Virus record (IMG/VR): IMGVR_UViG_3300028800_000171
Coordinates: 1-41,818 of that record
DNA from: a virus
Reading direction: 5' to 3' (one strand)
Length of the DNA stretch: 41,818 bases
The notes below the pieces were generated by a model that had not been told where the DNA came from, searched no databases, and saw only the letters and a list, made by a program, of their open reading frames with translations. Below are positions 2,081-41,803 of this stretch, piece after piece (within the stretch, counting starts at the first letter, position 1; every line of letters begins with the position of its first letter). Made by a program: the position numbers and the translations under genes.

Positions 2081-3442
2081 TTAAACGTTAGGAACAGCGA
2101 TATACTCTAATACGTAGTTTGCTGAGTCAGTATTGGCATTCCAGGTCACAGTGAAGCCTGTAGCACTCTTGGCCGTGATCTCTAGGGGCTGGAACTGAGG
2201 GAATGCATCTGTGACGTTCTTCATGTTCACAGTGAGTCCATAGCTAGTTGTACCTAGTGTAGAGCTGAATGTAACAGCCTGGCTAGTGGTACCGCTAGAG
2301 ATAGCCTGTTGGCCCGCCCTACCGCTGAAGCCTGTTACAGCAGCCCAACTCAGAACGCCTGAGCCGTTATTCTGCAGAAACGTCGTACCGACGCTTTGAG
2401 CAGCTGGCCAGGTAATGGAGTATGGGGTCACTGTAGAACCGGCGTTCATGGTGATTGCACCAGAGACAGTACCGTTTAGAAGAAGTGAAGGAGTAGCAAT
2501 AGACGTACTAAAGGTCTTAGCGCCGGCAAATGTCTGAGTGGTGATATTCACCATGCCAGGCACTAGGGCCGTTGCGCTCTGAGCGAACAACTGACTTCCT
2601 GAGATGACTAGACCGTTAGCAGAGCCTGCCTGCCCGTCGAATGTTCCGATAGTGTTTACAGGATAGGTAGTGACATCCCATACACCTGCGGAGGTTCCGT
2701 TATTGATAAGTGTAAAGGTGACTTGTGAACCACCGGGTAGCGTTGCAGCTAGCGAGCCACCGTTGAAGTTAACGGTTACTACTCCTGTAGACCTGTTCAT
2801 CACAGTGTACTGAGTACCGTTGAATAACGTTGTGGCATTAGGAAGAACTACAGTTTGAGTAGTCGTTCCTGTAAACTGTTGTCTTGAGGCACTTGCTACT
2901 GTAAGCGTGGTCGTGCCAGCTGCAGTAGCAGTAGTGAAGACATTCTCAATAAGGTTGTTTATCTGTGTATTCGCATTGGTATCGCGCGACATCACAGTGG
3001 ATGCGGTAGGTGCAGCTGTTGCTAACTGCCAACTTAAGTTACCGGAGCCGTCATTCTGTAGCAGTGTCGTGGAGCTAGCCGCACCCTGAGCACTGGGCCA
3101 TTTGACAGAATATGAGGTGGTTGTGTTCGCTGCCTGTAACGTTATAGCGCCAGAGGTTGACCCGTAGATGATGTAATTGAGGGCATTGATGTTGGTCCAT
3201 CTAAACGATGCAGAGCCAACGTTGATGCTGTTATCGACGCCAGGGAGCAAACTAGTGTTGATAGCTACGTTTGCTAGATTACTTAAAGCGTTGTTTGAGA
3301 AGGTGACGAAGACGCCGTTCTCGTAGAACTGGAATGTGTTCGTGCCACTGTCATAATAGACATCACCGTTTTCAGGCGAGGTAGGCAGCGTCGTTGGCTT
3401 AAGCGTTAAGCCATTTCTGATCTTTAAGTAGTTTAGCGCCAT
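2081..3442 (-). CDS. Modular tail fibre protein
   Basis: 453 residues; GGGAA lies upstream of the ATG. The order of modules is: N-terminal anchor (about 1-50, GDVYYDSGTNTFQFY); a shaft repeat ending in DGSGNLSWQ; a beta module (about 165-265) homologous to the N-terminus of the Kelch fibre; a second shaft repeat (SITWPAAQ then NNGSGVLSWA); and one C-terminal beta-sandwich domain of about 75 residues shared with the 1353-2015 product. The SGAITxxA, WPxAQ and GSGxLSW units are typical of trimeric phage fibre shafts. The protein looks assembled from interchangeable pieces also present in its neighbours, which fits recombination among fibre genes. I expect a trimeric fibre attached to the baseplate through its N-terminus. 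Confidence 0.8.
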   Translation of the reverse strand: MALNYLKIRNGLTLKPTTLPTSPENGDVYYDSGTNTFQFYENGVFVTFSNNALSNLANVAINTSLLPGVDNSINVGSASFRWTNINALNYIIYGSTSGAITLQAANTTTSYSVKWPSAQGAASSTTLLQNDGSGNLSWQLATAAPTASTVMSRDTNANTQINNLIENVFTTATAAGTTTLTVASASRQQFTGTTTQTVVLPNATTLFNGTQYTVMNRSTGVVTVNFNGGSLAATLPGGSQVTFTLINNGTSAGVWDVTTYPVNTIGTFDGQAGSANGLVISGSQLFAQSATALVPGMVNITTQTFAGAKTFSTSIATPSLLLNGTVSGAITMNAGSTVTPYSITWPAAQSVGTTFLQNNGSGVLSWAAVTGFSGRAGQQAISSGTTSQAVTFSSTLGTTSYGLTVNMKNVTDAFPQFQPLEITAKSATGFTVTWNANTDSANYVLEYIAVPNV

Positions 3443-5486: not shown

Positions 5487-8400
5487 TTAACTCCACTTCC
5501 TGATGGAGTACTTAAATGTTCCGTTAAAGCCTGTACTTGTCGACATATACATCACTGCAACGTCAGAACCGACTACGGTAGTCACAAAAGAAACCCCAGT
5601 AATGTTAGTCTCAGTATAGTCATCACTCTGTGACGATAGGCTCCCGTCGTTAGCTATTAATAGGCGACCAGTTCTATAGTTGCCGTTTCTTACCACTGAG
5701 TACTCTACAACTGCAAATGGGTTAGATACTGCATCATAGCTGAATAGGGCCGCAGGAGCAGATTGGTTGTCTAACATGGTTAGACCAGCTGAGAGTATGC
5801 TTGCACGTAGGCCACCTAGGATCATGTCTCCATTAGCGACGTCGATCAAGAAGTTACCGTTGCCGTCTAGCAACCCGCTGTTGTTAAACTGTATAGATTC
5901 ATTTGGTCCTGCTGCTACAGTGCTTCCACCGCCGCCACCGCTGTAGCTTGGCACGCCATTTGGACCGCCTGGGGTATTTGACCACCTACGGATCATAAGC
6001 TTCATCGTTGCATTGCTGCCGGTGCTCGTGCTGTTGTATGTAAGCGAGAAGTTTGCTCCGGATATTGCACCACTGAATTGGATACCACAGGCACCTAGGT
6101 AAGCTCCGCTTGTGGTGACATAAGCACTAGTTCCGTCGGATGTAACGTATACAGTACCAGTCTCTCTCGCAGCTCCTCTGTTCAAAGAGTAGTCGATAAT
6201 CATGTATTCACTACCAGCGTAGGTGATGGTGAACACATCGCCGCCGACCGTATTATCCGCTAATGTTGTCGTAATAAGATTTGACTGTTCCCAATAATCA
6301 GCGCCGTTGAAGTATCTAACGTAGTCGTTGAATACCCAGGTTGTACCGTTGAACTTACCGATCTGATCTCTGAAGCCGTTTCCGTCTTCAACCATCACAG
6401 TATCGCCATTGCTAGGAGCAGCAGCACCACCGAATGGAAACTGTAGCAACCAACCAGTGATGGTGGTACCAGTACCTTGTGCTGTATAAACTTCGTTGTT
6501 GCCAGAAGATAAGTTGGAAAACAATACCCTATCGCCAGCGTTCACCGTAAATCCGTCCTCAGTTACTGTGCCAGTTGGGAGTGTTGTGCTTACTAGATCA
6601 TAATATGTAACTCTGACAAGCGCTGCTCCACCTGGGATAAGTGGGATAGAACCTTGAACTTCAGTGCCGTTCCATAGGTATAGGCTAGCATCACTGAGTC
6701 TGCTTGCGATAACGATGACGTTTTCATCGATAGGTACATCGGCTGTGTTAGCAACAATGATTGGAGGCGTGCTAGCCATATTCCTGTTGATAACGACATA
6801 TGCCGACTGATTTACCAATAGGGAGATTCCTGGACTAGTGTCTGGTAGAGCAACCACTGCATTTCCTGGAGAACCAGGTTGTAGGATCGTCAACGAGCTA
6901 GATGCTGGTTGAAACGTGAATTCTTGTGCAGCACCGTTAGCAGTATTGACGGCAGTAGTAGCATTCGTTAGATACTTTAAGGTCTTATCTTGAGCCTTAT
7001 CCGCCATCATGGCAGTGAGCTTACTTGCACGCAACGTCAAGTTATCAGTAGTGTGCGAGTTGTAATCAGCCAGATTCCATAGAGTGTTATATGGTCCTGT
7101 GAAGTAATCTGGATGAATCTCAGCAAGCGAGCTCATCCCGATGAATCTTTGAATGTTGTCGGAGTCACCTTCGCCGATATCGATGGTTTCACCTTGGACA
7201 ACCTTGGTGATACCTTCTTCAGAGCGAACGTCAAGACGAGCAAGAGTTGCTGTACCAGCAGTTTCAGGGGCTGGAGGTCCAACAGTTGGTGTGACAGTGG
7301 CATTTGTCGCTGCACTGATAGTGACTGCAGCATTAAGCGCAAACAACCTACCGTTAACACTTCCACCGTCGATGGTGACGCTTGCAGAAGCAATCAATGT
7401 TCCTACGAACGTTCCAGTGCCGCTAACATTGAGGGTAGCTGAAGAACCGATTGCCCAGTAGACGTTAGAAGCCAAAGCTCCGCCAGTCAGAGTAATGGTT
7501 GGGGTGCCACCAGCACCAGTTGTTAATGTCGATGCAGTTTGAATCACAAAGATGTCAGTTGCAGAACCGTTTAAGGTAAGCGTTCCATTGCCAGAAGCAG
7601 CTAGAGATGCTGAACCTGATGAGAAGCTATAAACGCCTGCAGATAGGGTTTGTCCATCAAGGATAGAAGGAATGGTTGTTGAGCTTCTTGTTGAAAGATC
7701 TGTGTAGGCAGCAAGGGCATCTATCTGTGCTTGATGAGCAGCAGCGTTATTGATGTTCTCTGCACCAACAATAGTTCCTGGTGGGAAACCAGTAACAGAC
7801 GTTCCAGGATACAAGCCAAGGTCACCAGTGATAACGCTTGAACCAGTGTTAGTGATAGTTGATGCACCTAAGATAGCGTACGTAGCAGAAGTTGCTAGAG
7901 TAGGGCTACCAACTGGTGGGCTTGGGATCGAAGCACCTAATGGGAACTCAAACGTTGTTGGGCTCCTGTAGTTGATTACATACTCGTTATTGAAGTTAGT
8001 TGTTCCGGCGATAACGATGGTTTCACCAGACTCAAATCCGTTGTTAGCAGACTCAAGCTGTAAGCCGTAGCCATTGAATCTTGCTGCGGTTGTGCACAAC
8101 CCGTAGAAACCTGTGAACGTTCCGACAGAGGTATCAACCGTGTTGATGAAGAATGTATCTGCATCGATGACTTCAACTGTGTACGTTCCTGCTTGTCCAA
8201 CTGGTGCGGTAACCGTGATACGGTCTCCGTCTACCAATCCGTGGGCAGTTGCAATGATCTCTGCAGTGGTTCCGGTAGGCGATGCAGCTGATCCGTCGAC
8301 CATGCTGAGTGTACCAGACACTTCAACAGCGCTGATAGTTGCGATGTTTTCAATGGTATCGCTACGTAGCATCAACCAGATGAAGTCTCCACCAACTGCT

Positions 8401-9786: not shown

Positions 9787-12285
9787 TTAGTCCACAATTT
9801 GATAAACGGCGATAGTGCCATAAAGTTGCTCCGGGTAACGTACCAAGAAATCGATGAAGATACCTGCGCTTGCTACCGATGTAATTAAGTTCTCTAGAGT
9901 TACTCTAACCGCAGATGGGTTAGTGATGTAAGGTGGATACTCAGTGCCTATTCCACTCATGAGGTGCGGGCCCTTGTTATCTATAGCTACTATGCTAGAG
10001 CCAGCAGAGTGGCTGAATTGAAAGATGTAGGATGGGTCAATAACAATGGCTGTATCGTTTGGCGCGTATAGGTACCTAACAGGACCTTCCTGGGTGTTCA
10101 AACCATAGTCGAATACTACGAACCCGCCGGCGGCTGGGATGGTGTTTGGGGTCAAACTTAACAGTGGGACCACCTGACCAGCTTGAATACTTCCTACAAT
10201 CTGAGCTGTGTTCTCAGAGAGGACGAATGGAGCGGCCAGATCCCAGATGTATGTACCAGTGATTCTAGTGAAGCTAACTGGGAGCGCAGCGGTGATGAGC
10301 ACTAAAGATCCAACAGGTGACATGCCGATGGTATCAACTCTGGTAGACCCAGGGACAGTTGCCGTACCGTCCATACCAATACTTTCGTACGTGAACGTGT
10401 TACTTGTAACAGAGGTGATTACAAAACTTCCGTTGAGATTCTCATTGAAGGTGATAGCTTCTAAACCGCTGCCGGTAGCATTGTCGGTCATAGTCACTGT
10501 GGTTCCAGCTACATCTTTAACTAGAGTTCCTACAGGAATGTTAGCTCCAATAACTAGTTCACCTGGTGAAACTGTTGCGATGGGCGATACTCCGGAGATA
10601 GTGGGCGTTCCGTTACCGATGGTGCCAGTGCTGCTGGTGCTTAGGATTCCACTTGAACCATAGATGAATACTGTGTCCCCAACCTTGTAATCATGTGGAG
10701 TTGATGTAGTAGCTGTAACTATGTCACTAGTTCTTACTAAGCTAACTAGTGGATTCTCATCCAACGAAGCAAGTGCTGGAAGATCTGGGGTGATGCCGTT
10801 AAGCGTGTCGCCAGCAAAGATAACTGGGACGCTAGCGCCTGTGGCCGTTGCTGGAAAGTCAACTGTTACAGTGCTTCCTAGAATGTTGGTGATGAGAGCA
10901 TAAGATGGGATGCCAACCATGAACACGTTCTGACCAACGGCTAAACCCACGGTTGAAGCTACGTTCTGAATCAGGTTGCTGTTGATTTCGATATCACCAG
11001 TGGTCGTCAAGACAGACCTATCTGCATACGTATATTCAATAGGTCTTCCCTGAAACCTAGTATTGAATGTAGTTGAAGCGATGGTGTTCTCGCTTGAGGA
11101 GATGTACCTGGTTATGATCTCTTCCTCTTCCTGGAGCCAGAATGTTCCAGATAGTGGAAACTGAGATGCATCAGCTACAGTGATAGATGTTTGACTGTTC
11201 GTTGCTGTTACAACGCTCTCGGACCCATTAAGGTGGGCCGAACCAATAAGGGATCTCTTAACTACTGGAGGGGTGGCTGGTAGCTCTACGATGACTTCGC
11301 CTGGCGTAACTTCCCATGTAACCGCACGGTTATTCTGAGTGTATACGACATACTTGTTCGGTACGAAGAACTTGGTCTGAGTAGGATCAGTTTGCGTGTA
11401 GACGCCTGGGGTACCAAATAGATTGGTGAATGTGAAACTGTTCGTTCCTAGATTGATGTTGGTGATAGGAAACGAGCCAACGTTTCCAGGTATCAGAGAT
11501 ATTAGGACGTTGCCAACCTGTAGTTGATTCAGTCCTGGCGATGTGCCGCCGGTGTATTGAAACGTAACCTGGTCACCGATCTTGGTGACAGTCCACTGAG
11601 TGTTGTTGCCGTTGCCCGCTAGGAGTACGAACCCGTTGAACTGAAGGGGAATGTCTGCCCTACCGCCGACGATCTGCACTGATCCTTTAGAACCGATGGT
11701 ATTGGTGAATATCTTTACGAAGTTGCCCTTAGCAATGCTGTCGTAGTAATTCTCAGCGAAACTATGTTGAGCCTGTCTATTGATGGCTGCAACAACTTCT
11801 TGAGCGGTAGCTGCATTGATGTTGGTGAAATCGGACGCATTGAACTTGATGAGCTCGTCATATACACCGTCTACGGTATATTCTAGTTCCCACCCATCCT
11901 TGATGTTGTAAGGTGATGGCTGGCCAGACTCGATGAATGCAGTAGTAGTTTCTTTGGCAAAGAAGATGTCAAGTAGCTGATCGATGATGAGCTTAACCTG
12001 CTTAGGTTTGTAGGACATGATAGGAATGAACTGCTTGAACGTGGTATCGTCCATGCCCACGCCCTTTGGCCTAGCAACGCCGTCATTGGCTGCAAGGTTG
12101 TCTAAGTATGGTCTATAAGCTGTCTTAATAAAGAACTGCTTCTTAACTTCAATGATGAGATCAACGATGTTCTGGTCAGACTGACCCAAAGCAGTAACTA
12201 ACGCATTCCAGTTAGGATTATTCCTAGTGTTGAAGTGCGACGGCATCAGGTCATGGAGTTGATCAATTTTTGACTTGTTATCCAT
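9787..12285 (-). CDS. Baseplate wedge protein with beta-repeat modules
   Basis: 832 residues. The ATG follows the TAA of the 2586-residue gene by 1 nt, with no clear Shine-Dalgarno sequence, so translational coupling is likely. The first 120 or so residues are helical (HFNTRNNPNWNALVTALG, NLAANDGVARPKGVGMDD) and look like the N-terminus of a baseplate wedge protein. A segment near 130-210 (FNASDFTNINAATAQEVV followed by AINRQ) has a close relative in the 2586-residue protein. Further on are repeats of a beta module common in phage fibres (PGELVIGANIPVGTLVKDV, GTTVTMTDNATGSG) and an HDYKVGDTVFI-type repeat. Its place between the Baseplate_J protein and the appendages suits a gpI/gp7-like wedge role; the exact equivalent is uncertain. 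Confidence 0.7.
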   Translation of the reverse strand: MDNKSKIDQLHDLMPSHFNTRNNPNWNALVTALGQSDQNIVDLIIEVKKQFFIKTAYRPYLDNLAANDGVARPKGVGMDDTTFKQFIPIMSYKPKQVKLIIDQLLDIFFAKETTTAFIESGQPSPYNIKDGWELEYTVDGVYDELIKFNASDFTNINAATAQEVVAAINRQAQHSFAENYYDSIAKGNFVKIFTNTIGSKGSVQIVGGRADIPLQFNGFVLLAGNGNNTQWTVTKIGDQVTFQYTGGTSPGLNQLQVGNVLISLIPGNVGSFPITNINLGTNSFTFTNLFGTPGVYTQTDPTQTKFFVPNKYVVYTQNNRAVTWEVTPGEVIVELPATPPVVKRSLIGSAHLNGSESVVTATNSQTSITVADASQFPLSGTFWLQEEEEIITRYISSSENTIASTTFNTRFQGRPIEYTYADRSVLTTTGDIEINSNLIQNVASTVGLAVGQNVFMVGIPSYALITNILGSTVTVDFPATATGASVPVIFAGDTLNGITPDLPALASLDENPLVSLVRTSDIVTATTSTPHDYKVGDTVFIYGSSGILSTSSTGTIGNGTPTISGVSPIATVSPGELVIGANIPVGTLVKDVAGTTVTMTDNATGSGLEAITFNENLNGSFVITSVTSNTFTYESIGMDGTATVPGSTRVDTIGMSPVGSLVLITAALPVSFTRITGTYIWDLAAPFVLSENTAQIVGSIQAGQVVPLLSLTPNTIPAAGGFVVFDYGLNTQEGPVRYLYAPNDTAIVIDPSYIFQFSHSAGSSIVAIDNKGPHLMSGIGTEYPPYITNPSAVRVTLENLITSVASAGIFIDFLVRYPEQLYGTIAVYQIVD

Positions 12286-21672: not shown

Positions 21673-22710
21673 TTACCTACCAAACAAGTTAACGCCGTTT
21701 ACGACCGATCCAACGACAGCTTTAGCAGAGTCAGAGATGCTCTTGATGCTTGACAGTAGGGATGAAGAGTTTACACCGCTGAGACCAAGATCGTTCAAAC
21801 GCTGGTTCAAATCCTCAGTGACCTGAAGCTTGAGACCTACGCCACGAATGTTGTAGCCTCTCATAGTGATGGAGTAGTAGTAGAGCATTGGGTTCTCAGC
21901 GCTTCTTCTAAGAACGAAGTTCCTGATAGCCACGTCGTACTGATTACCGTCTTTGTAATTGAAGAATGTAAGTGGGTGAGTGGTCCTAGGAATACCGCTA
22001 TTCTCAACGCCTGCAGCGTCCTTCTTATACTTGAGTAGGAAGCGATAGAGGTTGTGGAATGCAAGGTAACCAGTTTGATCTGTATAGACGCCGGTTTCTG
22101 GCTGAGGCGAACCAGCGCCACCGAGTAGTCCGTTGATTGCGCTTACTGCTTTGCTAGCCTGATTGAGAACGTTGGTGACCTGAGCAACAGTGTTCGAGAA
22201 GAACCCGCCGAGAGCAACGTTAGAGTTGATAGGAAACTTAGCTCTACCTGATTGAACAGACGAGTTGAATGCTGAGAAGTCATCACCATTGGAAGCAATA
22301 GGATAAACAACCTTTGGGGCTATACCGGTCGTGCCCTCGATGGTGATATCGAAGTACCTTACATCTGAGTGCTCTTCAACCGTTCCATATAACGTAGGCA
22401 CAACGTTCGTGGCAAAATTTGTCACGATATTGATGTTGCTTGGGTTGATAGGTAAGAACATCACAAACTCAGAGCCGTCTCTACGGTTCATCCTGAATCC
22501 ATAAGGCTTGGCGGCGTACCAGTTTGAAGCCGCAGGAGAATAGATCCTGCTCATCTGGAGTTCATTAGGCTTATTGGTTACAGCTATGTTCCCAACCGTC
22601 TTAGCAGAGCCACCGTTCTTGGTGAGATCATTAAGAGGCTTCTTGGGCGCCTGGGATGGACTAGGCGAACTTAAACCTAAATTATCTTGTAGAGATGTTA
22701 TCAGCGACAT
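21673..22710 (-). CDS. Baseplate/tube-proximal structural protein
   Basis: 345 residues. A Pro/Ser-rich N-terminus is followed by a beta domain (FVMFLPINPSNINIVTNF, HSDVRYFDITIEGTTG) and a conserved-looking stretch (YRFLLKYKKDAAG, TFFNYKDGNQYDVAIRNFVL, YYYSITMRGYNIRGVG). The last resembles the hub-proximal or tube-initiator proteins that lie between spike and gp25-like genes in several contractile phages. The helical tail (260-345) is Ser/Val rich. TATAAT ends 8 nt before the ATG and no strong Shine-Dalgarno sequence is visible. A structural role is secure from context; the precise function is not. Confidence 0.65.
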   Translation of the reverse strand: MSLITSLQDNLGLSSPSPSQAPKKPLNDLTKNGGSAKTVGNIAVTNKPNELQMSRIYSPAASNWYAAKPYGFRMNRRDGSEFVMFLPINPSNINIVTNFATNVVPTLYGTVEEHSDVRYFDITIEGTTGIAPKVVYPIASNGDDFSAFNSSVQSGRAKFPINSNVALGGFFSNTVAQVTNVLNQASKAVSAINGLLGGAGSPQPETGVYTDQTGYLAFHNLYRFLLKYKKDAAGVENSGIPRTTHPLTFFNYKDGNQYDVAIRNFVLRRSAENPMLYYYSITMRGYNIRGVGLKLQVTEDLNQRLNDLGLSGVNSSSLLSSIKSISDSAKAVVGSVVNGVNLFGR

Positions 22711-35558: not shown

Positions 35559-36202
35559 TAGAAACCCTCCTCGTATGACCTGACGATGTCTCTTATCTTG
35601 GCATCCATCGTGTCTTGTAGCTCTTTGTTAAGAGTGGTTACTTCGTTAGTGAAATCTTTAGTCTTAGCTGGTCTGACCCACTGCTGATTAGGATCTTGCT
35701 TACTTGTTGCAGTACGGAATTGGACGCTTCCTCTTGATCCTGTAGGTGAGATAGCGGCGTATTGTCTCTTAGCATTCTCGGCACGCTCAGCATTGATCTG
35801 CTTGGCGGCATCGTAGATGTTAGTAGAAACCTTTGGTCTCTCTCTGCCAGTAGCCCCGACAGGAATAACCTTATAAACACCAGACCCATCTTTCATGGGC
35901 TTAGCGTTGGTGAGAAGTCTGTTCAACATTGGATATGGCGGTTCACTGAACTCTAGGTTGCCAGACTCGGTACCGATCTCCATGCTGCCGGGATCTAGCT
36001 TCAAGTCATTGATAAACTCTGGGGATCTCTGCTCAACACCTGCCTCGATGGCAAGCTCCATTGCAGATGCTCCCTGCTCGTCGAATGCGTCAGAGATTTC
36101 TCTTCTAGCTTTGCTTACGATTATCTCGATAACTCTACCGTCTAAACCTTTGTTTCTTAGGTTTACCCTCAAGCGCTCGAGCTCGAATAGTATGTTAGCC
36201 AT
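35558..36202 (-). CDS. Neck/connector region protein, unrecognised
   Basis: 214 residues; AAGGCGG lies upstream and the start overlaps the Nudix gene end by 8 nt. An N-terminal helical part (LERLRVNLRNKGLDGRVIEI, SKARREISDAFDEQGASAME) is followed by a middle beta segment (PYPMLNRLLTNAKPMKDGSG, VYKVIPVGATGRERP) and a C-terminal helix. In other tailed phages an HK97-gp10-type or head-closure protein holds this place, but I see no diagnostic motif. Overlap with both neighbours shows it is translated as part of the neck operon. Confidence 0.6.
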   Translation of the reverse strand: MANILFELERLRVNLRNKGLDGRVIEIIVSKARREISDAFDEQGASAMELAIEAGVEQRSPEFINDLKLDPGSMEIGTESGNLEFSEPPYPMLNRLLTNAKPMKDGSGVYKVIPVGATGRERPKVSTNIYDAAKQINAERAENAKRQYAAISPTGSRGSVQFRTATSKQDPNQQWVRPAKTKDFTNEVTTLNKELQDTMDAKIRDIVRSYEEGF

Positions 36203-37748
36203 TAGGCTTGTCCGCCTTCTTTATAGCTCTGGCGCGCATGTCCTTAAGGAAGTTCTCTTTCTCAAGATCTTGCCAGTCCTGGGCAAAAGAGATGGTGATC
36301 TTTCCGTTAGGGGAGATTTCAATCTTTGGCTTGGTGAGGTAGGAGTAGTACTCATCGTGAACTCGGTCTTTATTAGCTGGGTTTGCTGAGAAGGCTTCAA
36401 CGACTTGTGGTCCTTTGCCTACGTTATCAATCTTGTCTTGTAACTCGCGAAGCTTGGATTCTAACTCATCAATGTCTTTGCCTACTGCCTGAGCAAGGGA
36501 GTTATGCTTGCCAGTAAGGTCATGCATCACTTCTTCAAGCTTATCGAAAAGCTTCATGATGCGGGCTTCAACTTGTTGAAGATCTACAGCCATACCGTTA
36601 CGAAGCGTCTCGCGGATGGTTTCCATCTCCTCGTAGATCTCGCCGATGTTGTGTCTCTTATAGTTGTCGATTAGCTCGTTAAGTCCGCCGTGAATGGCGT
36701 CGTCAGGAAGGTTCTTGTCGTCTAGAAGGTGTAGTTCCTTCTCGTCTTCTGGCATGTACCATTCGAAGACGCTCATCAGAGCTGCAGTGAGCTCAGGAAG
36801 AGACTTGTTAGTAAATTGATAGACAGTCTTATGTCCGTCGTTCACTCTTCCGGAGTAGACGTCGCTCATGTGTCTTCTAATGCTTAGAATATGTGTGTCA
36901 ATGTGGACTTCCTTGAAATCCTCATCTTCCATACCGTCAACAACCCTGCGAAGGGTTCTGAACATGCCGTTGCCGACTAGTCTCAGTGCGTCGCCGTGAG
37001 TAACTTCAAATACAGCATCAGCCTTCTGGCGGATGATGTTCTTCTCGAGGGCTTCCAAAGCAATCATCCCCTTCAGGGACTTGCCGAAACGCTTGCCTAC
37101 AAAATCTTTGAGTGGTTGTTTGCAACAGTCACGAAGCTCATCCCAAGGAATCTGGTCAAGTTCATACCATTTCCAATCTGTCATTGACTCATGTCCGTCA
37201 TCTGACTTGGTGCTCTTAGGCTTGCCACTTACGATCTCTGCTAGATACACTACCGTATTGTTATTATTGGTCGTGCCTCTCCAGATCTCATCCGTGATGC
37301 GACCAACGATGGTGGATTCTTCGTTTAATTCTCTTAATGCTGCTTGATCAAAACTTTCATTGGCTTCTAGGTGTCCACCAGGGAAAGCCTTGCCGCCTTT
37401 GTTGTGTTCGCCTAACAGGATCCTGTTGTTGGAGTCCATCACCATACAAGCCGCGCAGTTGCCGCGCTCCTTCTTGCTAAGGTATTCTTCAAAGGCCTTC
37501 TTCAGGTCCTTCTTGGACTTCTTCCTCTTGATACGATCTTCTTTGGTCTTCTCTTTGGCGCGCTTGTGATGCTCTTCGCCCCACGTACCGCCCCTATCGT
37601 TATGCTTGGATTCAGCTGCACCCTCACCAGGTGACGTATACTTGGCTGCTACAGACTTTGGGGGACGACCACGCGGACCGTCCTTCACGTTACCGTGGAC
37701 GATCGCCATCATCATTCTGTATTGACGTCTACTTACTGCTTGAGGCAT
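36195..37748 (-). CDS. Nudix-domain fusion protein in the neck operon
   Basis: 517 residues. The N-terminus (SRRQYRMMMAIVHGN, RGRPPKSVAAKYTSPGE) resembles a motif seen at the start of assorted phage virion-region proteins. It is followed by a Lys/Glu-rich helix (55-95). Residues about 97-215 are a Nudix hydrolase domain. Its box (G125, E131, R139-E140-L141, E143-E144) keeps the metal-binding glutamates; only the usual last Gly is Thr (T146). A helical domain (225-340) and a long coiled coil (about 365-445) follow, then a C-terminal domain of about 60 residues. Nudix enzymes hydrolyse nucleoside diphosphates linked to other groups. Why one is fused within a structural operon is unclear: it could be packaged in the virion, or act on host nucleotides or caps. 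TATAAT lies 33 nt before the ATG. Confidence 0.8.
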   Translation of the reverse strand: MPQAVSRRQYRMMMAIVHGNVKDGPRGRPPKSVAAKYTSPGEGAAESKHNDRGGTWGEEHHKRAKEKTKEDRIKRKKSKKDLKKAFEEYLSKKERGNCAACMVMDSNNRILLGEHNKGGKAFPGGHLEANESFDQAALRELNEESTIVGRITDEIWRGTTNNNNTVVYLAEIVSGKPKSTKSDDGHESMTDWKWYELDQIPWDELRDCCKQPLKDFVGKRFGKSLKGMIALEALEKNIIRQKADAVFEVTHGDALRLVGNGMFRTLRRVVDGMEDEDFKEVHIDTHILSIRRHMSDVYSGRVNDGHKTVYQFTNKSLPELTAALMSVFEWYMPEDEKELHLLDDKNLPDDAIHGGLNELIDNYKRHNIGEIYEEMETIRETLRNGMAVDLQQVEARIMKLFDKLEEVMHDLTGKHNSLAQAVGKDIDELESKLRELQDKIDNVGKGPQVVEAFSANPANKDRVHDEYYSYLTKPKIEISPNGKITISFAQDWQDLEKENFLKDMRARAIKKADKPNG

Positions 37749-38706: not shown

Positions 38707-38955
38707 ATGGATGGAGTACTGATATTAGAGCGCATAATTGCAGAAGAGGGCAACTGTTGCTGGGCGAGACCCGCTATCTGTAAGTCGTGTCCGCTGAGCC
38801 GCTTAGCTAGGTACGACAGCGGCGGATTCATGAGTTGCGTAGAAGCTCTGAATATAGATGGATTAAGTGAAGTAGAGGCCGATGCTAAATATAAAGAAGC
38901 TGCCATCAACAAGCTTGCAGAGCTCACACTTGATAACATCATCGAGAGCGACTGA
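38707..38955 (+). CDS. Small cysteine-rich protein, probable zinc binder
   Basis: 82 residues. Cys17, Cys18, Cys25, Cys28 and Cys44 are arranged as EEGNCC...ICKSCPLSRL...MSC, followed by an acidic helix (SEVEADAKYKEAAINKLAEL). It shares the G-x-C-x(n)-C-x2-C-P core and the helical tail with the next gene, so the two are paralogues. The stop codon overlaps the next start (TGATG), showing coupling. I recognise this type only as small phage proteins of unknown function. Confidence 0.65.
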   Translation: MDGVLILERIIAEEGNCCWARPAICKSCPLSRLARYDSGGFMSCVEALNIDGLSEVEADAKYKEAAINKLAELTLDNIIESD

Positions 38956-39194
38956 TGGCGCTTAACACCTCGGACAAGAACACTCTCGAAGAGATCGTTA
39001 AGCTAGATGGCCAATGTCTTGATTCCAAGAGATGCCAGAGATGTCCGTTTCGTGCTGCCTGCCTACCAGAATTCCTAAACCCCGTACCTCCAAGCCAACC
39101 CCAGCGTCTTAAGATGGCGCTAGATGTTCTTGCTCACCATTACCTGATCGACGACGAGTCGGGAGCAGACGAACATACCTGGGATAAAAAGTAG
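38955..39194 (+). CDS. Small cysteine-rich paralogue
   Basis: 79 residues. Cys21, Cys27, Cys30 and Cys36 (DGQCLDSKRCQRCPFRAACL) form a four-cysteine site, followed by a helix (PQRLKMALDVLAHHYLIDDE). Paralogue of the preceding gene, with which its ATG overlaps by 1 nt. Function unknown. Confidence 0.65.
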   Translation: MALNTSDKNTLEEIVKLDGQCLDSKRCQRCPFRAACLPEFLNPVPPSQPQRLKMALDVLAHHYLIDDESGADEHTWDKK

Positions 39195-39262: not shown

Positions 39263-39469
39263 ATGATCAACTATCTAGTATCGTTAGCTTTCTCCCTTGC
39301 GTTCTTGTACACCCTCACAAAAGGACGTTATATGGAAGGCCGCATCGATAAGATTGATGTTAAGCGCGATCGCCAGGAACTCATCAACCTCTATTACCGT
39401 ATGGAGTTGAAAGCATTTATCCAGGCCCTTCTGTACACTCAAGGCGTGAAGTTTAGTATAAAGTCCTAA
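39263..39469 (+). CDS. Small single-pass membrane protein
   Basis: 68 residues, starting at the ATG at 39263, because AAGGAGG lies 5 nt upstream; an in-frame ATG at 39242 has none. Residues 2-18 (INYLVSLAFSLAFLYTL) form one membrane segment. The rest is a charged helix (RIDKIDVKRDRQELINLYYR). Its stop overlaps the next start (TAATG). No family recognised. Confidence 0.6.
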   Translation: MINYLVSLAFSLAFLYTLTKGRYMEGRIDKIDVKRDRQELINLYYRMELKAFIQALLYTQGVKFSIKS

Positions 39470-39747
39470 TGTTCTACGACAAACTCACCATGGAAGAGGT
39501 TGCTAAGTTTTATAAACTACTCAACTTCCTCCGACGCCTCAGGATTATAGGGCACCTAGAAGCCCACACTGAGCAGGTCGAGAATGTCGTGTACGAGATG
39601 GAAGCTTACACCTTAGTCGACATGACTGACGCCAACTATAGAGTGGTGAAGGATAGCTATTCCTCTAGCAGGGAACGCATCAGTGCAGAGGATCTTCTTG
39701 AGAAACTGTATGGTAGACCTGCAGATGCCGTGTACAGGCGCAGCTAG
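39469..39747 (+). CDS. Small helical protein of unknown function
   Basis: 92 residues, coupled to the membrane protein by a TAATG overlap. Mostly helical with a basic patch (LLNFLRRLRIIGHLEAHTEQ) and a C-terminal basic end. Its end overlaps the convergent 39744-39983 gene by 4 nt. No recognisable domain. Confidence 0.55.
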   Translation: MFYDKLTMEEVAKFYKLLNFLRRLRIIGHLEAHTEQVENVVYEMEAYTLVDMTDANYRVVKDSYSSSRERISAEDLLEKLYGRPADAVYRRS

Positions 39748-39983
39748 TCTTTCTTGACGAAAGCTTTCTGATAAGACGCGAACATGTTTGGTGCCATGAA
39801 TATCTGGTCTGGTGTACCGCTGTTGTTCTGTACCTGCCGTATCATGATCTTGAGTTTCTCAGAGGTCGTGACTTCAGCGCTTCTAATGCCTAGCTTGAAT
39901 AGAAATTCTTTTAAGGTGACGATTGAGATTTCCCTCTCAAGCTGACTGGCTAAACCTATCATTCTTGGCAACTCGCTCACCAT
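39744..39983 (-). CDS. Small protein following the PagL-like gene
   Basis: 79 residues, helical (SQLEREISIVTLKEFLFKLG). Its ATG lies inside the last codons of the PagL-like gene (7-nt overlap, ATGGTGA), so it should be translationally coupled. Unrecognised; could instead begin at a nearby GTG. Confidence 0.55.
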   Translation of the reverse strand: MVSELPRMIGLASQLEREISIVTLKEFLFKLGIRSAEVTTSEKLKIMIRQVQNNSGTPDQIFMAPNMFASYQKAFVKKD

Positions 39984-40468
39984 GGGATCTCCACATGTAT
40001 GAGGATGAAGTCACGACCTCTGTTTGGACTCTCTAATCCTGCAGATGAGATGTGCTTGTAGTCTAACCCGATAATGTTGCCCTTGTTGTCTTTGACGCCG
40101 AGCAGCAAGTCTTGATTGAACTGGAAGATACCGCCAAGCTGGGTATCAGGACTAGTGATGCCACCTACACCCCACAGAGATCTCAACAATAGGTAACCTG
40201 GATTCACCTCAACACCGGTTGAGATGTTGCCGAAGCCAGAGCTACTCCTACCGCCTCCACCCTGATCTGCGAACACTCCACCCTCGTACTGATAGATGAA
40301 CGGACCAAACCAGTCATCTTCGTATCCTAAAGAGAACAGCTTAGTCTCACCCCTACCGGTCTCAGCACTTCCGAATATGCCTAGACCATACTGACCAAAG
40401 GTTCCTGCTAACACTATCTTAGCGGTGAGCATCGCCATGACGACCGCACCTATGATAATCTTTCTCAT
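39977..40468 (-). CDS. PagL-like lipid A deacylase (outer-membrane beta-barrel)
   Basis: 163 residues from the ATG at 40468, chosen because it overlaps the upstream stop (ATGA) and gives a clean signal peptide: RK, a hydrophobic core and a cleavage site near A21. An alternative ATG lies 15 nt upstream. The mature part alternates polar and hydrophobic residues in short strands and ends in IPW, the C-terminal aromatic typical of outer-membrane barrels. The motif GLDYKHISSAGLESPNRGRD near the end matches PagL enzymes, which remove the 3-O-acyl chain of lipid A using a His-x-Ser pair and a Glu 14 residues after the His. Here the equivalents are H139, S141 and D153 (Asp for Glu). Likely effect: remodelling host LPS during infection, for example against superinfection or immune detection. 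Family call from motif, not from a search. Confidence 0.65.
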   Translation of the reverse strand: MRKIIIGAVVMAMLTAKIVLAGTFGQYGLGIFGSAETGRGETKLFSLGYEDDWFGPFIYQYEGGVFADQGGGGRSSSGFGNISTGVEVNPGYLLLRSLWGVGGITSPDTQLGGIFQFNQDLLLGVKDNKGNIIGLDYKHISSAGLESPNRGRDFILIHVEIPW

Positions 40469-40671
40469 GCTATCTTCACCCATCTACGACCGTCGAAGAG
40501 TTCGACCTTGTCTTTGAAAAACATTACTGACCCATGAGGGACTGGATAGTATTCAGCAGTCTTGATACCTAGCAAACCAAGGAAGCGAATCAGCCCGAAC
40601 TTCTTGCTGGCATCCATATCCATAAAGCGAGTCCCCGTCACCATTGATTGTACGTAGCTGTTTGGATTCAC
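40465..40671 (-). CDS. Small protein upstream of the PagL-like gene
   Basis: 68 residues from a GTG at 40669-40671 that overlaps the preceding stop (GTGA). A hydrophobic stretch (FGLIRFLGLLGI) is followed by short strands (HGSVMFFKDKVELFDGRRWV). Ends in an ATGA overlap with the PagL-like start. Unknown function. Confidence 0.55.
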   Translation of the reverse strand: MNPNSYVQSMVTGTRFMDMDASKKFGLIRFLGLLGIKTAEYYPVPHGSVMFFKDKVELFDGRRWVKIA

Positions 40672-40829
40672 AGCTGATCCTCGGGCGGCATGAAGTAGAT
40701 GGTGTTGTGAGAGTCTTTATGAATGAGCGTTATGACGCCGCCCCAGTTGGCTTGTCCCTTTAGGATATTAAGCTTGAGCAATAGGTGCAGCAAGTGGTAG
40801 GTGCAGTTCTCGTGGCACACGTACTCCAT
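40668..40829 (-). CDS. 53-residue protein in an overlapping accessory operon
   Basis: Begins MEYVCHENCTYHLLHLLLKL and ends MPPEDQL; contains HxxC-type residues (C5, H6, C9, H12). The ATG shares bases with the upstream stop (TGATG at 40831-40827) and its stop overlaps the next GTG (GTGA). Coupling at both ends supports it as a real gene despite its size. No known family. Confidence 0.6.
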   Translation of the reverse strand: MEYVCHENCTYHLLHLLLKLNILKGQANWGGVITLIHKDSHNTIYFMPPEDQL

Positions 40830-41068
40830 CAGCGCCTTAGCTTCTCAACGCTATACTTGGTGCAGTAGACAAACTTCCTGTGAGTAGCTTCGATGGGACC
40901 TACCCTATCGACGTAGTACCTACGCTTATCTGGGTTTGCGCTGTCGTCATCCCTCTTGATGGTGCCGTAGCCTACGATGTATTGAAAGCGGATAGCACTA
41001 CCGAACATGTTGTAGTGCTTGTTACCCCAAGGATCGTGCATCTTGCGGACGCTTCTAGATATTTTCAT
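40829..41068 (-). CDS. Small basic protein of unknown function
   Basis: 79 residues, basic with aromatic strands (NKHYNMFGSAIRFQYIVGYG; RRYYVDRVGPIEATHRKFVY). Start overlaps the upstream stop (ATGA), end overlaps the 53-residue gene. Unrecognised. Confidence 0.55.
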   Translation of the reverse strand: MKISRSVRKMHDPWGNKHYNMFGSAIRFQYIVGYGTIKRDDDSANPDKRRYYVDRVGPIEATHRKFVYCTKYSVEKLRR

Positions 41069-41337
41069 TGATCCTTCTTCATCGGCTTGTACTTGAGTAG
41101 ATAGCGACTTACAGGTATGATCTGGGACTTTTTGAGGGCGTTGAAGTTCTCGAACTCGTGGCTAGACGATAGCATGATGTGGGTATTTACCCCAGGAACG
41201 TCGTTGAAGCCGTCAAAGTAGTGCCACTTAGCTTTGCCAGATTCCCCGTCAACCTTGTAGTCCTCGAATTTGCTAACCCCTAGATGGATATAGCGATAAC
41301 GTCTTGGACGGCGGCGCGGCTTGTATTGCTGGCTCAT
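41065..41337 (-). CDS. Small Arg-rich protein, first gene of the accessory operon
   Basis: 90 residues with an Arg-rich N-terminus (YKPRRRPRRYRYIHLG), suggesting nucleic-acid or membrane contact. It is first of a run of overlapping genes leading to the PagL-like gene. TATAAT ends exactly 6 nt before the ATG and no spaced Shine-Dalgarno sequence is present. Confidence 0.55.
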   Translation of the reverse strand: MSQQYKPRRRPRRYRYIHLGVSKFEDYKVDGESGKAKWHYFDGFNDVPGVNTHIMLSSSHEFENFNALKKSQIIPVSRYLLKYKPMKKDQ

Positions 41338-41575
41338 CCTAGGATTATACTGACGTGGAAACGTAAGAGTCTTATGTGCAGATTAAGAAGCTATCTCCCG
41401 AATCTATTCTTAAGACTGCTATATTGCAATTAATTAACACAATCGCCCTCGTAACCTATTGAAATTACAGGGTCGAAAACTACCATTACTAGTTAATCTA
41501 ACATAACGAAGTTTTAAGAACTGATTTCCGGTACGCGGGGTACAGTGGGCCCTCCCCGCCTAAGTCGGACTATAG
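41338..41575. other. Gene-free 238-nt gap with promoter box and GC hairpin
   Basis: No open frame with a ribosome-binding site on either strand. It contains TATAAT (41344-41349, minus) for the gene at 41337, and a GC hairpin with arms GCGGGG (41535-41540) and CCCCGC (41554-41559), without a T run. The hairpin follows the stop of the 41576-41803 gene. No tRNA-like cloverleaf is seen. Confidence 0.6.
41344..41349 (-). promoter_or_regulatory. TATAAT box 6 nt before the 41337 start
   Basis: AGTATAATCCTAGGATG: six bases between the hexamer and the ATG, as at 30789-30794. Suggests transcription starting at the ATG itself. Confidence 0.4.
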
Positions 41576-41803
41576 TTACCAACCTTGACGTGCAAAGGTT
41601 GCTTCTAAGTGTCTCTTCCTGACAATGCCAAGCTTTCCAAGCAAGATGACCAGATTCATAGTGGAGCGCCATTGGCTGAGAGCTGGCTCAAGCATGTAGT
41701 TATAGTTGACTCCAAAATGTAAACTCTCAAGCGCTCGCTTGATCGGGTAGTTCTCAAGCTCTCGCACACTCTTCTCTGCATTCTCTTTATGTATATCAAT
41801 CAT
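41576..41803 (-). CDS. Small helical protein near the right edge
   Basis: 75 residues, helical (KENAEKSVRELENYPIKRAL; WRSTMNLVILLGKLGIVRKR). Only 15 nt of upstream sequence are visible; they include CAAGAGTAGAGCTGT, a possible AGAG-type ribosome-binding site. No recognised family. Confidence 0.5.
   Translation of the reverse strand: MIDIHKENAEKSVRELENYPIKRALESLHFGVNYNYMLEPALSQWRSTMNLVILLGKLGIVRKRHLEATFARQGW

Follow-up and report, generated by a model that had tools for sequence, protein, structure and literature searches.

The minus-strand gene at positions 39977 to 40468 of the window, i.e. of the whole 41,818-nucleotide stretch of DNA analysed here, very probably encodes a genuine PagL-family lipid A 3-O-deacylase, made by a phage as an outer-membrane enzyme. 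This conclusion draws on the family, the predicted fold and the conserved residues of the protein, on purifying selection, on the overlapping neighbouring genes and on the spread of the gene among phages; the activity itself we infer. Genes for a tail sheath, a baseplate and a head are present in the window, in keeping with the phage setting assumed in the initial annotation. The best isolate match of its tail sheath is Myxococcus phage Mx1 (34% identity), which comes from cow dung and in which no PagL was found; the Gram-negative host proposed earlier fits. At the coordinates of the PagL ORF, the plus strand is riddled with stops. The ORF finder gives 40483 as the first ATG of this ORF. Its start is likely the ATG at 40468 (163 aa), which is preferred because it overlaps the stop of the upstream ORF and aligns with the starts of the relatives. 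Overlaps are present at both ends, so that PagL is the middle one of three overlapping small genes transcribed leftward, within an operon-like run of small ORFs that are otherwise without matches. The features are listed below (2erv is the solved structure of P. aeruginosa PagL).

39977..40468, minus strand: putative PagL-like lipid A 3-O-deacylase CDS, 163 aa plus stop (profile, fold, selection)
40465..40671, minus strand: upstream small ORF, its stop overlapping the PagL start as ATGA, with an LxxLLxxLGIK motif
39744..39983, minus strand: downstream small ORF, its start overlapping the PagL stop, with an LxxLLxKLGIRSA motif
40406..40468, minus strand: predicted Sec signal peptide, residues 1-21, cleavage between VLA and G, no lipobox Cys
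40010..40054, minus strand: active-site block, residues 139-153, HISSAGLESPNRGRD, from the alignment with relatives and 2erv
40052..40054, minus strand: His139, aligned with the HxS histidine of 2erv
40046..40048, minus strand: Ser141, putative nucleophile, aligned with the HxS serine of 2erv and invariant in the viral relatives
40022..40039, minus strand: Gly144 to Asn149, putative oxyanion-hole residues, both invariant in the viral relatives
40010..40012, minus strand: Asp153, putative triad acid, at the Glu position of P. aeruginosa PagL

The Pfam PagL profile (PF09411) matches the 163-aa protein at 37.2 bits, above the cut-off of 23. This match spans positions 64-134 of the 136 profile positions and lies in the C-terminal half of the protein, the N-terminal half being matched by fold alone. 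An NCBIfam search gave no match. All 32 aligned viral relatives match Pfam PagL, and a profile built from them retrieves 2erv at 1.2e-12, the next match being at 0.41. The AlphaFold2 model calculated with the alignment of these 32 relatives (pLDDT 92, pTM 0.83) presents eight strands after the signal helix, with H139 and S141 on strand 7 and D153 on strand 8. 2erv is the top match with Foldseek (2.7e-5) and is ranked first by VIA-align 2 (Z 19.3, rmsd 1.5 A over 133 residues); the aligned structures share about 19% identity. The next fold match is OprF (Z 16.1 at 2.5 A). Like the matches to OmpA, OmpX and avidin-type folds it ranks below 2erv, and we took these matches as common barrel shape. 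The profile, the predicted eight-strand barrel topology, the H-x-S, an acid 14 residues after the His and the signal peptide, by which we judged PagL membership, are all found here and shared with P. aeruginosa PagL, as are the G and N of the active-site block. The PagL identity put forward in the initial annotation is backed by a profile match above the cut-off, by the conserved active-site residues and by structure prediction, which returned an eight-strand barrel and not another fold. The signal peptide, H139, S141, D153 and C-terminal Trp (W163) that it listed are all present in the sequence.

The signal peptide (MRKIIIGAVVMAMLTAKIVLA, followed by G) was called by reading the sequence by eye and from hydropathy rather than with a dedicated predictor. 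Its hydrophobic core has a mean Kyte-Doolittle value of 2.5, residues 2-14 form a helix in the AlphaFold2 model, and the signal peptides of the relatives end in A/S-G. Regarding the active site, a loose signature (H-x-S with an acid 14 residues on) has four occurrences in the 164 stop-to-stop frames of at least 60 aa in the window and thus carries little weight alone. The full PagL motif, H-x-[ST]-x-[AG]-G-x3-P-N-x-G-x-[DE], is found once in the same 164 frames. Only eight columns are invariant in the alignment of the 32 viral relatives, and seven of these are H139, S141, G144, P148, N149, G151 and D153; this invariance is biased since the set was gathered largely by searching for the same motif. 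The three closest relatives, which were gathered without the motif, retain the block, one of them with Gly for Ala143. Between the window and its relative L001, differences at first, second and third codon positions number 25, 12 and 72, and dN/dS is 0.07 (NG86) or 0.12 (YN00). Judged by this codon comparison, the PagL gene is under strong purifying selection. The dominance of third-position changes, together with the block kept in the three closest relatives, argues that the protein is maintained. A chance occurrence of the motif is ruled out by the profile match, the fold match and the selection tests.

The Asp in place of Glu, on which the initial annotation remarked, is correct for D153 but does not distinguish this protein, as bacterial PagLs often carry Asp. 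Among 299 Pseudomonadota genomes, four carry the full motif with a final Asp and nine carry it with Glu, one of the four being the centre genome of the draw, itself picked through the Asp pattern. In a collection-wide scan the Asp form was found in at least 120 stretches and, among the matches listed, all have the motif in an open frame. The Asp is therefore ordinary, and we discarded it as a sign of something unusual. Compared with PagL, the protein of the window has Asp instead of Glu (frequent in the family), Ser142 where PagLs have Asn after the catalytic Ser, and a basic residue before the acid. Of 28 clade relatives, 25 have a basic residue (R or K) directly before the acid and 13 have Ser following the catalytic Ser; neither occurs in any of 95 bacterial PagLs, a deduplicated sample made up of Asp types only. 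From these residue counts, it is the basic residue and the Ser, not the Asp, that set the phage clade apart.

In a tree of 138 PagLs, the protein groups with L001, L002 and L005 inside a clade of 29 rows (support 96/85). Of these rows, 28 are viral; the sole 'bacterial' row is the MAG contig L212, in which a phage-type ThyX and further phage-like genes surround PagL. The clade is supported and, from the labels and gene contents of its rows, effectively phage-only. Other viral PagLs are placed apart, i.e. in a Pseudomonas prophage group, a group around L029 and L093 and a group around L098. Six label changes are needed to explain the tree, and supported branches force at least five of these, which makes it likely that phages gained PagL several times. 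A motif scan of viral contigs gave at least 120 stretches. No PagL was found in 50,697 isolate phage records by tblastn with the protein of the window, L106, L093, L037 and a 40-aa Pseudomonas-prophage segment, and a first scan of genome contigs using close relatives gave no match. Many Pseudomonas-type prophage contigs (L011-L130, e.g. L044, L088, L011) carry a PagL distinct from the 2erv sequence. For the clade of the window, a host gene caught at a prophage edge was rejected because the neighbourhood is the same in the window, L001, L002 and L005, and because 28 of the 29 members are viral and the last comes from a phage-like MAG contig. The related copies appear to form a phage-only branch present in many large uncultured phages (the L001 contig has 176 kb), and the gene looks like a working tool.

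In all four related contigs, PagL lies between a conserved Cys-rich small-gene pair and a run of tiny ORFs. The pair, at 38707-38955 and 38955-39194 (plus strand) in the window, has a C-x4/5-C-x2-CP pattern, adjoins PagL in all four relatives and has no Pfam match. As for the tiny ORFs, an LxxLLxKLGI(K/R)SA motif is found in about 37 of them (38-111 aa) in the four related phages. The ORFs with this motif cluster around PagL, and the two genes overlapping it are among them.

39469-41803 in the window: tiny-ORF motif cluster
2415-6206 in L001: tiny-ORF motif cluster
2481-6905 in L002: tiny-ORF motif cluster
827-6587 in L005: tiny-ORF motif cluster

A tiny-ORF profile, built from the same ORFs, has 38 hits of at least 8 bits in the four loci versus one in reversed decoys; one of the 38, at 22331 in the window, falls outside the cluster. 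The motif was not found in Mx1, the members in the window have no convincing Pfam match, and one member searched against isolate phages gave no match. By their shared motif, the tiny ORFs look like an expanded phage-specific paralogous family. Other genes of these contigs deserve mention. L002 encodes a c-type cytochrome two genes downstream of PagL (5658-5996; Pfam Cytochrome_CBB3, 35.7 bits versus a cut-off of 27), and L126 has a weaker CxxCH protein at 2864-3148. The 517-aa protein at 36195-37748 of the window has a NUDIX hydrolase-like domain, through which a portal protein profile matches; similar proteins occur in L001, L002 and L005, and no isolate phage match was found for that of the window. 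In L005, two ORFs that read as HNH-type endonucleases (10019-10531 and 11140-11634) separate structural genes that are direct neighbours in the window.

Several known systems can be compared with this gene. It differs from bacterial PagL in being carried by a phage. LpxR (PF09982), a lipid A 3'-O-deacylase, is likewise an outer-membrane lipid A deacylase but belongs to a separate family and cuts at the 3' position; a Pfam scan of the protein at E up to 10, whose filters discard most matches above about 0.1, did not report PF09982. Of the 32 viral PagL-like proteins, 18 match PHROG 15758, an unnamed family of unknown function, to which the protein of the window has a weak match (E 0.077).

As to its mechanism, the protein would be exported by the Sec pathway during infection and would form an eight-strand barrel in the outer membrane. 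Ser141 would act as the nucleophile with His139 and Asp153, and the oxyanion hole would form around Gly144 and Asn149, residues that we take to have this role from the PagL structure. Acting in the outer leaflet, the enzyme would remove the 3-O acyl chain of lipid A by breaking its ester bond. The phage would likely benefit from an infected cell whose outer membrane is remodelled, either weakened or shedding vesicles for release, or with an LPS changed so that later phages adsorb less. Catalysis, the cleavage site, the timing and the purpose are what we infer for this PagL. From work on the Salmonella enzyme, PagL cuts the 3-O acyl chain of lipid A, its H163 and S165 are essential, and outer-membrane vesiculation is increased about four-fold only when it is active (PMC4958258).

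The enzyme could act mainly in superinfection exclusion or receptor alteration, deacylated LPS packing differently so that phages using LPS or outer-membrane proteins adsorb less. It could also act mainly in release, the loss of one acyl chain weakening or vesiculating the outer membrane late and helping lysis. We regard each role as possible rather than probable, and the superinfection exclusion proposed in the initial annotation is as yet unsupported. The operon-like run of small, otherwise unmatched ORFs around PagL speaks for exclusion, as such runs are the kind of region that holds host-takeover genes. Phages do alter LPS against others, for instance by P22 GtrABC and D3 Oac, which are also phage-encoded changes of host LPS but target O-antigen sugars, not lipid A acyl chains; all the phage LPS modifications in that source concern the O-antigen, and lipid A is not mentioned there (PMC11436027). 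Moreover, a strictly virulent phage would profit less from exclusion than a prophage. Release is favoured by the position of independent viral PagLs, near two holins in L029 and between a Q-like antiterminator and a terminase in the prophage-type L044, by LpxR, which adjoins antiterminator Q on E. coli prophages (PMC13192938), and by the induction of vesicles by PagL. However, the Salmonella study reports that PagL expression did not itself trigger the envelope stress response (PMC4958258), and no lysis gene was recognised adjoining PagL in the window or in close relatives. The L044 and L029 neighbours and the prophage LpxR make release as likely as exclusion, and the two are left even because no lysis gene adjoins PagL in the window's own clade.

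The small barrel could alternatively be a non-enzymatic surface protein that keeps the PagL fold, has lost catalysis and serves as a shield or adhesin, as other small outer-membrane barrels of phages do. Many phage proteins that share this general barrel fold carry no annotation beyond outer membrane protein, and Ser142 replaces the usual Asn. However, the active-site block is intact and conserved in close relatives gathered without the motif, and the fold is nearest to PagL and not to the OmpX, OmpA or PagP types, which makes this improbable. Immune evasion, also raised in the initial annotation, would mean that the phage reduces host endotoxicity for an animal-associated bacterium. It finds no support here and appears most unlikely: PagL-type deacylation does lower inflammatory recognition, but beyond this general effect nothing found points to an animal-associated host, and Mx1, the closest cultured relative judged by the tail sheath, is a Myxococcus phage from cow dung.

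A phage PagL that deacylates lipid A thus remains our preferred reading. Lipid A deacylation has so far been known mainly as a bacterial adaptation, and the familiar alterations of host LPS by phages affect O-antigen sugars. In the titles, abstracts and passages covered from the literature on phages or AMGs with PagL, no phage-borne PagL was found. What is new is a phage-restricted branch of a known family; the mechanism is not new. We tentatively suggest that this branch may belong to the standard infection equipment of many large uncultured phages, in which lipid A deacylation by lytic phages would remodel the host outer membrane, with a substrate preference perhaps set by Ser142 and Arg/Lys152. 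The clade offers compact enzymes open to test and suggests a function for part of PHROG 15758. It also makes answerable whether lipid A deacylation during infection serves lysis or exclusion.
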